This document shows positions 28,601-37,600 of a stretch of 64,000 nucleotides of DNA, one piece after another. Location of the stretch: the NCBI RefSeq assembly GCF_040183065.1, contig NC_091131.1, positions 14,026,800-14,090,799 on the forward strand. The letters are read 5' to 3'. Positions within the stretch are counted from its first letter, which is position 1. The number at the start of each line of letters is the position of its first letter. The DNA comes from Periplaneta americana (Eukaryota > Arthropoda > Insecta > Blattodea > Blattidae). The notes under the pieces were generated by a model, which saw only the letters and a program-made list of their open reading frames with translations, was not told where the DNA came from and made no database searches. The position numbers and the translations under genes were made by a program.

Positions 28601-31600
28601 TTTTTGCCTTATTTCTCTGCTTCTTTTCTTCCTGCACTTTTTAGGCAAAAGTCCAGCATTGATAGTAAGTCATCATACATCATTTGCTGTGACTGTAAGA
28701 GCTGTAAATGACCACTGTTAGTAAATTATTGCATTGAAATATCACAGAAAAGAGTTATCTTGGTACATTGTACAAAATTGGTATTCTTCATGAATATAGA
28801 ACAAGAAAATGCACTTGTCTTCTGTAAGTTAAAATATTTTAGTAGTTGCTATGGTAATTATAAGTACTGGTATTATAACAAGAGTCAACTGTTTCCCAGT
28901 TTCGTTTTGGTTCCTGCTTAAGGGGAGTCTGTACTTCCATATCTTACAATGTTAAATTCCTCAATTTTGAGTACACTTTTCTCAGAAGTTATAAAAGAAA
29001 CAAATGTAGAAAAAATAGGGCATATATAACATACCTTTATGTACACAACCGGTTGAATAAATTTAAAATCCCACTGAGCGGTTGGCAAAAAAAAAATTGA
29101 TAACATTTTTTGCATTAAGAATTACTACAAATTATTTTTTATTTTTGCTGAAGATAGAAATAAACACAAATTTTTTAACCTACTGTGTAAAATGTCATCA
29201 CATTGATGTTGTATATTAATTTCAGCCGTCTGGGTACAATACTTTCTGAGAAAAGTGTACCAGAGCCACAAAAAATAAGAAAATGCAGAAAAATGGTGTC
29301 AAAGTTTTCATATCTTGCAATGTTAAATTCCTCAATTTTGGGTCCACTTATCTCAGAAGTTATAAAAGATACAAATGTAGAAAAAATAGAGCTTATGTAA
29401 CATACTTTTAGCTATAGGCCACAACTGGCTAAATAAATTTAAAATTCCACTGAGCGGTTGGCAAGAAAAAAATTTTCATTGATAACATTTTTTTGCATTA
29501 AGAATTACCACAATATTTTTGCTGAAGATAGGGCTAAAAGCTTACAACTAGAAGAAATAAAATCATATCATTTTACACATATTAAACTACCGAAAAACGA
29601 TAAAAACCAAAATTTCATTTTTTGTCAAAATTCGGTGTACAGACACATTCCAAGGCACTAGTGTATTTAAACTAATTAAGAGGAAAATGTAGTGTAGACT
29701 ACAAAGGAAGTGTAGAGTAGAAATTGTCAGTAATATCAGCAGTATTCTATGTACAAGTTTGTGTGATGGCATATTTTTTTCCATTTGCCTGCCCAGTGTT
29801 TCATCAGATCGCATTATGCCGTTTGGTTCAGATGACAACTTCTGGGAAATGGGAGTGAGTGGACCATGTGGTCCATGCACAGAGATTCATGTGGACCACA
29901 TTGCCGGCCGGAAGCAAGCAGCAGACAGGGTCAACAAGGGACATGACGACCTCACAGAGATCTGGAATCTGGTCTTCATACAGTATGACAGGTAATTTTG
30001 GCAGGAAGTGTTTTGTGTACAAATTTGATGCATGGTTCATCTTCTGTGTTTGGTACTACCTTTGGATGCAGGTATTACAACTAAGGACCTGTATTTTTAG
30101 AGAAAAAATAATCTTAAATGTGTCTTTCACTGCATGAGAAAGTAAAGGTTGGTGTCTTGTAGTGATTGGGTGAATAGAGGGTGAGACAAAGCCACACACA
30201 CTTATGCTGCCTTTACAGTTGAATTTTAACGAGGGCAATGAATGGCCACTAAATTTTGTATGACGCCCTGTTGTTCAGTGCCAGGGTTTTTTTTTGTCAT
30301 AAATATATGGTACGGGCTTTCTAGCTTTCTTTTTCTTTGAGTCATGTTAAAAGATTTTTATTGCTTGGTTGGATTTGAACTCTCATATCTTCATTCCAGT
30401 GCAAAGTGTGGTAGCCACTAGACTAAGAGTGGATGGGTAAATTTATTTACAGGAGGGTCAAATGAAAAATCAACATTTTTTGGCTGGCCAGAGGCTTTTA
30501 TTCTGTAATTTTACTTCAGTGTTCATTTTTAAAAATCTGAAAACGAAAATTATAGATTGTCATGAACCCATGAATGAATTAAAGTTAAACACTTTTTCTG
30601 AATACTGCGAGAATCATACATAGCCTATCGAAAAAAATTGTGTAATTCTGAAATACAGTAGAACTTGGTTATAGCGACCTCGTTTTGTGCGACACCTCAC
30701 CTATAACGTCAAATATTCTGTGGTCCCAACTAATTCCCCATAAAACATATGCTTTTCTACCTTGCTTAATACGACAAACGCATATGCGTCTACCTCGCAT
30801 ATAACGTCATTTTCAACCTCAGTTTGGAATACAGTTTTCTAAGAACTAAAGTATTTTAAGAAATATTTTGCTGAAATCTGGCAAATCCTTTACTGTTCCC
30901 TTCTATCATAGACCAGGCAGATTCCCCATCCCATTGTAACCTGCCCGAATTCATGTGATATTAATGATACCTGCATGCGGTCAGTTTCGACAGAAAGTTT
31001 CACTAACTGCACGCATTTTAACGCAGTATGGCCACTAAAAGAAGTGAGTGGCACTTTAGAAGCCATTAGAATTGTGAACATTTCTATGAAGCTAGAGGAG
31101 GGAGTATGAAGGTAGGAGAAGGAGCAGTGAAATTGCAACTGAAATAATGAACATAGAATTTAATTTAGAAAGTGTATATTGGGCAAGTAGGAGACAACAG
31201 AGTAAAATGACTGATTACTTCACTCCTCAGTAAATAAGTTTGTGAGTAATGAACAAACTGTTTTAATACAGAATACTGTATTTATAATTGTACATGTATT
31301 TTATTGTGTTCATGGTATGCTTAAAAGTGAATACATAAATCTAAAATAAGCCTAATATTATATTTATTATTTTTCATTTTCCACCTCACTAGACTGATAA
31401 TACATATGAATCTCGGTTACTACGACACTCGTTTATAACAACATAATTTTCAAGGTCCCGTAGATGTCGTTATAACCAAGGTCTACTGTACTTAACTGTG
31501 GTATTACCGTATATACACAAATACTCCGCGCCATTGAATAATCCATGCACCCTGATTTTAGGAGAGAAAAATTAAAGCAAAAAATAAAAACAAATAAAAT

Positions 31601-34600: not shown

Positions 34601-37600
34601 AAGGTGGACACTGTACTTTCAAAAAACCCTGGATATGAAGAACTACAAAAGGTTGTTGCTGTGATGAGTGGTGAATCAACAGTGAAGATTAACTTGGACT
34701 TATCCCCAGCAGACATTGTGAAATTGAATTATGTACCAGTTACTTCTTGTGACGTCGAACGCTCTTTTAGTCAGTATAAATCTATCCTCAGAGACAATAG
34801 AAGAAGATTCACTTTTCAGCACTTGAAAGAAATGTTTGTAACCTATTGTTATGGTAACAGACAATAAAAATTGTGTTTTGTTGAAACTACATTGGAAGAT
34901 AAGGTACGTCCATTATATTTTTTGTTTAGCTTGATTAAAATGTACCAATATTTAACGTACATAGTCATTTTTTTATAATTTTAAGTCCATATTTAATTCC
35001 ATATTTTGGTAAAAATCCATATTTAATTCCATATTTTGGTAAAAATAACTACATATATATTTACATATTTCATATATTTTTAGTCCATATAAATCCGTTC
35101 CCTGATGATGATGATGATGATTTGCGTATATATGGTAATTTCCAAATGAACCAGTTCTCTGTTATGACATTATTATTCATTGCAATTGAGGCATTCTCTG
35201 AAACAAGAATTTAACTGCAAAATATTAAATTTGAGATACAGAGCACCAAACATTTTAGAGTTCGTATAACATTTAAAATGTTTCTAGAGGACGTTGGTTG
35301 TGTTTGTTGCAAGGAAATAATATTTTGTTAGAAGGAAAATGTGTTATTAAGTATTCAATATATGCTGGAAATGGAAAAACGACATTAAATAGGTACATTC
35401 AGTTGTTATTTCAGAAAACACCTCAATTCCTAACAACTCATTGGCATCAATCGTTGTGTGAATCGTTTCGACTATCAATTTCATTGTTATCTCGAGACTG
35501 GTCTCATGGAATGAGGACACAATTATGAAGTAATTAACGAGGCTATTAAATTTAAATGTGGGGACTATGAAGACAGAAATGAAAAGAAATATCAAACTTT
35601 TATTTCAAATCCCAAACACTTTTACAATCTCAATAATTCTCACAATAATAATCAAGAACAGCATAAATGTTTCACGCAATTATAGAGATTTGATGAATTT
35701 CCTCTCACTTTTTTTTTGTCCACAAAGTTTCCTTTTGTGCATAGAGATGTTTCTACAAGTAAAATTATATGGGAATGCGGATATTTCTGATGATGTAAAA
35801 GGGAATGTTTTTACAAAATAAAGAAAATTGAGACAGGTCATTCACAACTGATTAGTGGAATGTCTCTTAAAATACCACTAGAATTCAGTTTGAAATTATA
35901 TCAGTATTACGGAATTGCTAAGGTAAAATGAATCCCATGAGACAAATAACAACTTGAAAACTCTGAAATTTGTCCCAATACCTAGAATATGGCAAACAAC
36001 GAAATCACTTCTCGTAAATTTTTTGCAGCTGTGATGTCTATCAATATCTTTATCCTTCACTTGTGCATGTAATTCATATATGTTTAGATCTGATTTTATG
36101 TCGCCTGTTTCGATATCAGTTTTCTTGGATCTCCTAGAATATAAGGTTATTTGAATAATGAAATTATTAATAATATAATTAAGACAATAAATTGTAACTA
36201 ATTTGCTAAGATGTCTTTGATTGTAAAATTATGAATGAAATGAAATTTTATCCTTATACATCTTGATTACACAACTTTTAACATTATATCACTTTGGAAA
36301 ACGTATTATATATCTTTCACGTGTTAAATTTTATGTTACCTTGTTAACATGTTTCGGCTTGCTATTGGCCATCATCAGAACTGGTCGTTGCTGGTCTTGG
36401 CACCTTTTGTTTTGTTTCCTGTGGGGGTGTGTTTGTGTAGTGTAATGTGGAGTCAAAGAGAGTGTGTGTTCTGAAATTGAGTTGTGTGTTGAGAATTTCA
36501 TTTGGATGTGTTTTTGTGTGTTTGTATATTTCGTGGTTAGCGATAGTGTTTTGTTTACTTTTATGGTTTACTCCAAGGCTTCAATAGGTTATCTCATTTT
36601 TCATTAGCCAATCAAATGGCTAATTGGCTTATGATGCGCGAAGAGTCTATGCTCATTGGTCCTTTATTTTCAAATTGATAGCGACATCTGTGCTTCAGTG
36701 GCTGGTCATGATAATATCTTTGAAAAATATTGGAGTGCAAGAGGTCAAATGACTTTATTGTCAAACGCCTGGCATTAGAAAACAACAACAACAACATATT
36801 TCGTATTGTTCTAGTGTGTTTAGTTTCTGGCTTTTTGGTTGGATGTGTAGAATTTCCATGTCTGTGTTGATGTCTCTGTAGGTGTGGTTAGCATTTGTGG
36901 TGTGTTCTGCATATGTGGAAGTGTTTTGTAATTTTGTTATGGCTGTGATGTGTTCTTTGTAACGTGTTTGAAATGATCTGCCTGACTGTCCTATGTAGAA
37001 GTTGTTGCACATGTTACATTTGAGTTTGTATACGCCTGTGTGATTGTATTTGTTTGTTTGTGTTGTGTGTGTGTTGAGATGTTTTTGTAGAGTGTTATTT
37101 GTTCTGTATGCAATTTCTTGAATGACGTTGCAATATTGTGTGTGTTTTTGTTTTCGTATGTTAGTGTGATGTATTTTTTGTGTTGTATTCTTATGTTTTT
37201 TGTGATTATGTTAACCCAATTTCAGAACACACACACTCTTTGACTCCACATTAAACTACACAAACACACCCCCACAGGAAACAAAACAAAAGGCGCCAAA
37301 ACCAGCAACGAACAGTTCTGATGGTCAATAGCAGGCCGAAACATGATAACAAGGTAACATAAAATTTAACACGTGAAAGATATATAATACGTTTTCCAAA
37401 ATTAAATTTTATCAATATTTCTATTTAATTCGTTTGGATTATTTAATTCTGTTTGGTGTAAAAATAATAAATGTATGACTCTGCATGTTTTACTGTGCCT
37501 TTACAGTTTACACAGATTCACTTTTAAAAGCTGTTATTACATGAATCCTAATACCACTAAGTTATTTTTTTATTACATGCCAGTTTATTTTAAATTATAT

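Follow-up and report, generated by a model that had tools for sequence, protein, structure and literature searches.

A three-layer transposon nest in Periplaneta americana and the apparently very young, mass-amplified hAT element at its centre

Within a 64,000-nucleotide stretch of Periplaneta americana DNA (assembly GCF_040183065.1, contig NC_091131.1, positions 14,026,800 to 14,090,799 of the forward strand; hereafter the window), three transposable elements lie one inside another in an alanyl-tRNA synthetase gene: a miniature inverted-repeat transposable element (MITE), an RTE-like long interspersed nuclear element (LINE) and a hAT DNA transposon. This locus raises the question of in which order, and how recently, the three arrived, and whether the innermost one belongs to a wider event. 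All together, the data make it very probable that an aged MITE was entered by a young, 5'-truncated RTE-like LINE, and the LINE in turn by a full-length hAT of a recently amplified family, with a mechanism reconstructed from sequence. The nest by itself is ordinary genome archaeology, while the hAT amplification is not; the original prediction, which had reported the nest, missed this weightiest point, namely how young the hAT is and how many copies it has.

The nest with its three layers is confirmed, and all three sets of boundaries lie where they had been claimed. Specifically, the MITE occupies bases 31507 to 35135 and is flanked by its TA duplication (31505-31506 and 35136-35137). Within it, the LINE is bordered by an 11-bp target-site duplication (TSD), ATTTGCGTATA, at 31678-31688 and 35120-35130, of which 9 bp are certain and 11 the maximum, because the right copy shares its first two letters with the GAT tail. 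The 2.2-kb hAT (32909-35104, 2196 bp) sits within this tail, with an exact 8-bp TSD, ATGATGAT, on both sides, and its transposase open reading frame (ORF) of 494 amino acids (aa) is open from ATG to stop (33383-34867). The nesting firmly establishes the insertion order as MITE, LINE, hAT. The features, in window coordinates, are the following.

31507-31688, plus strand: left and central part of the MITE, including its right terminal repeat as far as the LINE insertion point; terminal inverted repeat (TIR) CCGTATATACACAAATACTCCGCGC, compared with the reverse complement of the right end; 26 aligned relatives
31678-31688, plus strand: left copy of the LINE TSD, ATTTGCGTATA, inside the MITE terminal repeat
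31689-32908, plus strand: RTE-like LINE, 5'-truncated, the final ~1.2 kb of an element of ~3.23 kb, including the GAT tail up to the hAT
32842-32844, plus strand: premature TGA in the LINE frame, private (1 of 30 aligned copies)
32901-32908, plus strand: left copy of the hAT TSD, ATGATGAT
32909-35104, plus strand: hAT transposon, full length, 2196 bp
32909-32927, plus strand: left TIR of the hAT, CAGGGAAAGGATTTATATG
33023-33108, plus strand: left subterminal cluster of the hAT, five TCCATAT in a single orientation, putative transposase sites
33383-34867, plus strand: hAT transposase ORF, 494 aa
34986-35090, plus strand: right subterminal cluster of the hAT, five TCCATAT oriented as in the left cluster
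35086-35104, minus strand: right TIR of the hAT, CAGGGAACGGATTTATATG
35105-35112, plus strand: right copy of the hAT TSD, ATGATGAT
35113-35121, plus strand: remainder of the LINE GAT tail right of the hAT, with a 2-base overlap with the LINE TSD
35120-35130, plus strand: right copy of the LINE TSD, ATTTGCGTATA
35131-35135, plus strand: last 5 bases of the MITE right terminal repeat; joined to 31688 they restore the family right end in register

The divergence of the layers from their families falls in the same direction, as had been predicted: 18 of 179 positions for the MITE, 9 of 1217 for the LINE and 1 of 2196 for the hAT. The contrast between MITE and LINE is marked (p 7e-11). Six of the nine LINE substitutions are private with respect to 29 other copies, while the single hAT difference from the majority is common to three of the other copies compared, leaving none private among 12; the contrast of private LINE with private hAT changes gives p 0.002, or 0.01 with the shared hAT change counted. 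The insect mutation rate lies near 3e-9 per site per generation. On this rate, and assuming a star-like history, the hAT (0.07-0.12%) would be very roughly a few hundred thousand generations old and the LINE (about 0.5%) some 1.7 million. The description of the nest as a natural clock fits the relative order, which is firm, but it was overstated for a single locus, on which absolute dates are not firm.

The copy number of the hAT was assessed in one assembly of a 3.2-Gb genome (3.23 Gb). The hAT end motif, with up to one mismatch allowed, occurs 7,128 times in forward and 7,113 times in reverse orientation (14,241 genome-wide), compared to 1 + 0 matches of a reversed-pattern control. Half of these ends corresponds to 7,120 elements (about 7,100), or some 0.5% of the genome, about 0.1% diverged. 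Among the 51 elements listed (100 ends listed), 49 have both ends at full-length spacing, 36 of these being exactly 2,196 bp long and the others 2,168 to 2,226, and no miniature derivative appears among the 51. A 200-base stretch of the coding region has 6,181 exact occurrences (87% of 7,120), which means 0.07% change per site if only substitutions break the match. At the protein level, at least 87 copies encode the same 494-aa protein: all 87 scored matches are identical. They are the top-ranking ones among 56,071 first candidates and all lie on C1, so that the fraction is no population figure. Seventeen of the 87 identical-protein copies are among the 51 listed elements, which sets a floor of one third there. 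Finally, 12 copies compared in full show 31 substitutions in total with respect to the majority, from 0 to 0.27% each. Eight of the 12 came from C1 and were chosen by position; indels are over-represented in this sample, because four of these eight differ from 2,196 bp, compared to 13 of the 49 listed. Given the roughly 7,100 near-identical copies of its family, the innermost layer of the nest is a single insertion out of a very recent amplification across the genome. Judged on sequence, a full-length hAT that looks autonomous appears to have undergone this mass amplification very recently.

At element position 2022, the copies L039, L040, L041 and L042, on four chromosomes, carry a C where the eight others carry a T. 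This variant is a sub-lineage tag that could allow the tracing of source and daughter copies. The idea of the hAT as an extremely rare element, raised by a whole-hAT DNA search that returned four near-identical copies (including the nest's) and three decayed fragments, was rejected on the count of 14,241 ends. The small number of matches is probably due to the skipping of very common words, together with the variant shared by the four copies.

Exact 8-bp TSDs flank 12 of the 12 fetched hAT copies. Their sequences show T at position 2 in 11 copies, A at position 7 in all 12 and a pyrimidine at position 8 (C or T) in 11, and the full pattern NTNATNAY, derived from these same copies, is present in 10. 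Genome-wide, NTNATNAY precedes 4,183 hAT left ends, or 59% of ~7,120, about 105 times the 0.56% given by chance from base composition (35% GC). The hAT sites also conform to the Ac-like target pattern nTnnnnAn. Since (GAT)n reads ATGATGAT every 3 bp, the LINE tail would have offered a short series of preferred targets, and this would account for the insertion point. The exact start of this tail has 229 occurrences genome-wide; insertion without preference would place 0.012 hATs in that many tails of 24 bases, and one was found, the count covering hAT ends at the left side of the tail.

The near-identity of so many copies, so far seen in a single assembly, could in principle derive from gene conversion, segmental duplication or assembly error rather than from recent transposition. 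Conversion and duplication make no new TSDs, and therefore the copy-specific TSDs count against them: each of the 12 fetched elements has its own, with unrelated flanks in the 12 bases beyond on each side, and many different flanks are found among the 100 ends listed, beside the 4,183 left ends with a motif-matching flank. We regard this explanation as very unlikely. An even smaller chance, close to negligible, is given to the LINE tail and the hAT being one composite travelling unit, in which case the order would not be LINE and then hAT; the original prediction had named precisely this, and also a LINE less diverged than the hAT, as findings that would speak against it. The two do adjoin in the nest, and at five places in the genome, the nest included, the LINE 3' sequence GCTGTAGCGCCA is followed after 4-34 bases by a hAT end. 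However, the other four show different tails and different target sites, and the nest's hAT end is the only one of the 14,241 to sit 4-34 bases after an exact match to GCTGTAGCGCCA in a GAT tail. In addition, none of the 29 other LINE copies examined has a hAT end within the 45 bases that follow its aligned match, and none of the 11 other hAT copies has a GAT tail in the 20 bases on either side; the LINE, for its part, is more diverged than the hAT. The four places in question map to C2:67566267, C3:100353590, C11:24261707 and C17:107274510, with tails beginning near GGAT; LINE tails may be recurrent hAT targets.

A more serious alternative leaves the burst recent and makes the family vertical, the hAT being an old resident that was reactivated. 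Decayed relatives are indeed present: a place on C1 matches at 89% identity across 227 bp and at 88% across 72 bp, and another, on C16, at 76% across about 180-200 bp. These pieces are the only ones found against about 7,100 near-identical copies, in searches that skipped common words and scored only the best protein matches, so that intermediates could not be fairly counted. Reactivation is thus a real possibility, to which we give somewhat less than an even chance. The recent amplification of the hAT, which is the preferred reading, is common to both histories.

Regarding the element itself, 18 of 19 bases match between the two hAT ends, and both begin with CAGGG, in line with the CAGNG type of the hAT superfamily TIRs. 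Both were found in the window at 0 mismatches, with 0.04 matches expected at up to 3 mismatches. The transposase shows a DUF659 match (2e-12) above the Pfam cut-off; a zinc finger and candidate DDE catalytic motifs were seen by eye only. The zinc finger is N-terminal and followed, again by eye, by a CGGBP1-like block, and we take this arrangement to resemble hAT-19 and the CGGBP-type hATs. Among solved structures, no transposase relative was found at a useful E-value (best 0.12), and a scan of viral contigs for the transposase gave four pattern matches, none of which was confirmed. The heptamer TCCATAT occurs at five plus five sites outside the ORF, with none on the other strand and none within the ORF. 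This count of 10 compares to 0.19 expected and was reached in none of 2000 shuffles, the motif having been picked by eye before the test. By analogy with known systems, TCCATAT would be the binding site of the 494-aa transposase.

The layers themselves show the sequence of events. A TA-flanked MITE in the alanyl-tRNA synthetase gene aged to about 10% divergence; its right terminal repeat then received a 5'-truncated copy of a young RTE-like LINE; lastly, a full-length hAT entered the LINE (GAT)n tail. The mechanism is proposed as a model. The N-terminal zinc finger of the transposase may bind the ends at the ten co-oriented TCCATAT subterminal repeats, and the enzyme would excise the hAT and paste it with an 8-bp stagger at NTNATNAY. 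A net gain of copies could follow from sister-chromatid repair of the donor sites or from transposition during replication, both of which are established for cut-and-paste elements.

A further step would be to see in these data a hAT invasion that is ongoing or just past, spreading almost only as full-length elements, with some 7,100 insertions, most of them near-identical, and thousands perhaps with a working transposase. This we put forward tentatively, as slightly more doubtful than not. Several observations weigh against the preferred account of nest, amplification and mechanism. The Dimer_Tnp_hAT match is weak (E 0.025, 14.8 bits, below the cut-off of 21.4), and the single-sequence structure model of the transposase reaches a mean pLDDT (predicted local distance difference test) of only 37. 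Two of the 51 listed hATs are without a recognisable second end, and the 494-aa frame is lost in four of the 12 compared copies and kept in eight. As for the tail as a target, only one of the 229 LINE GAT tails, a number obtained from the exact tail start, is known to carry the hAT, so that the idea draws on one event and on the genome-wide site motif.

Autonomous DNA transposons usually persist as a few full-length copies accompanied by many dead or miniature ones. If the invasion is true, its early phase, before decay and takeover by miniatures, would be open to direct study, and if the insertions still segregate, they would provide a natural experiment on the escape of a DNA transposon from control. 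A candidate transposase with defined ends, likely binding repeats and a target motif could also, if true, become a gene-transfer tool. In the literature searched, at the level of titles and starts of abstracts, there is no report of such a hAT burst, and the part of PMC9689775 covered, on cockroach and termite transposons, does not mention one.

The middle layer was compared with its relatives through 571 first candidates, of which 40 were scored and 30, including the nest copy, were cut out; the best 29 other copies form a close subfamily. The claim of an open reverse transcriptase (RT) frame holds in part: the 3' part of the RT is present, with RVT_1 profile positions 41-203 of 205 covered, but the LINE is 5'-truncated and its frame is closed by the TGA at 32842-32844. 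This stop arises from one private change and is absent in 29 of the 29 other aligned copies; the family frame, as in the relative L051, ends at a TAG 14 codons beyond it. No endonuclease match was found in the nest LINE by Pfam profile search. An intact LINE was therefore rejected, given that only the last 1.2 of ~3.2 kb, a partial RT and a premature stop are present, and a copy made of the last 1.2 kb was dead on landing. Full-length relatives measure ~3.23 kb, with a 5' end common to six of 12 long loci. L051 contains one 1,026-codon frame with Exo_endo_phos (4e-9) and RVT_1 (1.5e-33) matches, and several of the 11 other long loci have broken frames. A TSD of 9-13 bp at the tail is found in nine of the 12 relatives, one having none and two doubtful matches; in one of the nine, L056, about six bases separate the left TSD copy from the 5' end.

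The outer layer measures 187 bp once the LINE, the hAT and one target duplication are removed, the LINE splitting its right terminal repeat. The MITE family search gave 41 rows at 40 places, one being the nest locus. Of the 39 other places, 27 were fetched and 26 used for the alignment, L077 (two pieces) being dropped and 12 weaker ones left out. The rejoined MITE is in register with the 26 aligned relatives, and none of the 27 rows is gapped right after the LINE insertion point. TA is found on both sides in 16 of the 27 rows, the nest copy included, and the family majority ends read TACCG...CGGTA. TIRs, a TA duplication and no coding capacity identify a TA-target MITE of the pogo/Tc1-mariner type. 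Ten of the 18 differences between the nest copy and the majority of the other 26 are at CpG; the other copies are 9.8 to 20.7% divergent, some of these values being inflated by force-aligned, differing left ends. Both LINE TSD copies read ATTTGCG, as opposed to ATTCGCG in the family majority, and therefore this MITE mutation predates the arrival of the LINE.

The host gene, identified through Pfam as alanyl-tRNA synthetase, runs on the same strand as the nest and has exons on both sides of it. Of the synthetase profile, positions 2-46 fall at about 19736-19873, positions 208-257 at about 37664-37813 and positions 378-535 inside 51556-52710; these matches bracket the nest without fixing the exact intron. 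The exons extend across 19571-57921 on the plus strand, over more than 30 kb, with a putative further exon seen by eye at 57511-57921, without a Pfam match. Adjoining the nest on its left, and not nested, a second element occupies 30651-31493, with 31-nt inverted ends (87% complementary) that presumably resemble pogo/Tigger. Elsewhere in the window, an open transposase frame of 635 aa in which Psq helix-turn-helix and DDE_1 domains are recognised, and which we assume to be pogo/Jerky-like, lies at 720-2627 on the minus strand, and a fragment of another hAT transposase (Dimer_Tnp_hAT, 5.8e-14) at 43525-43902, also on the minus strand. A long low-complexity tract at 59160-60203, open on both strands with leucine/proline/serine and arginine repeats, is by its look a simple-sequence tract and not a gene. 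GC skew falls to -0.32 in 56001-60000.

As to known systems, the use of nesting to order insertions is the logic of TinT (transposition-in-transposition) dating, an established approach which reportedly derives the order across many nests, whereas here the nest is a single locus. The LINE family appears, from its sequence, to share with the RTE clade a length of ~3.23 kb, one ORF encoding endonuclease and RT in about 1,020 codons, a short tandem-repeat tail and frequent 5' truncation. A length of about 3.2 kb, a single ORF with APE-type endonuclease and RT, such a tail and frequent 5' truncation mark that clade.

For the hAT, the comparison draws on parts of the papers cited. The likeness to Hermes and hobo, of the Ac-like target type, lies in the 8-bp TSD, with NTNATNAY containing the nTnnnnAn preferred by Hermes, and in the subterminal repeats, which in Hermes are bound by the N-terminal BED zinc finger (PMC10368747). 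The differences are a Hermes transposase of 612 aa, compared to 494 aa in the nest hAT, and Hermes repeats that are mostly antisense at the left end and sense at the right, while TCCATAT runs in the same direction at both ends. The hATs of Rhodnius and Locusta have AT-rich binding motifs, hAT motifs match subterminal regions, and AT-rich motifs are bound by insect hATs whose N-termini are of the CGGBP type (Yellan et al. 2021, PMC8097297). Buster hATs, which have insect members, are similar in their 2.2-2.5 kb length, CAGGG ends and recent activity; however, for those compared here, full-length copies number 3 and 17, with miniature derivatives in the majority, the reverse of what is found for the nest hAT (PMC4298943). 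With respect to Hermes and hobo as well, the nest hAT stands apart through its roughly 7,100 copies, almost all of which are full length among those listed.

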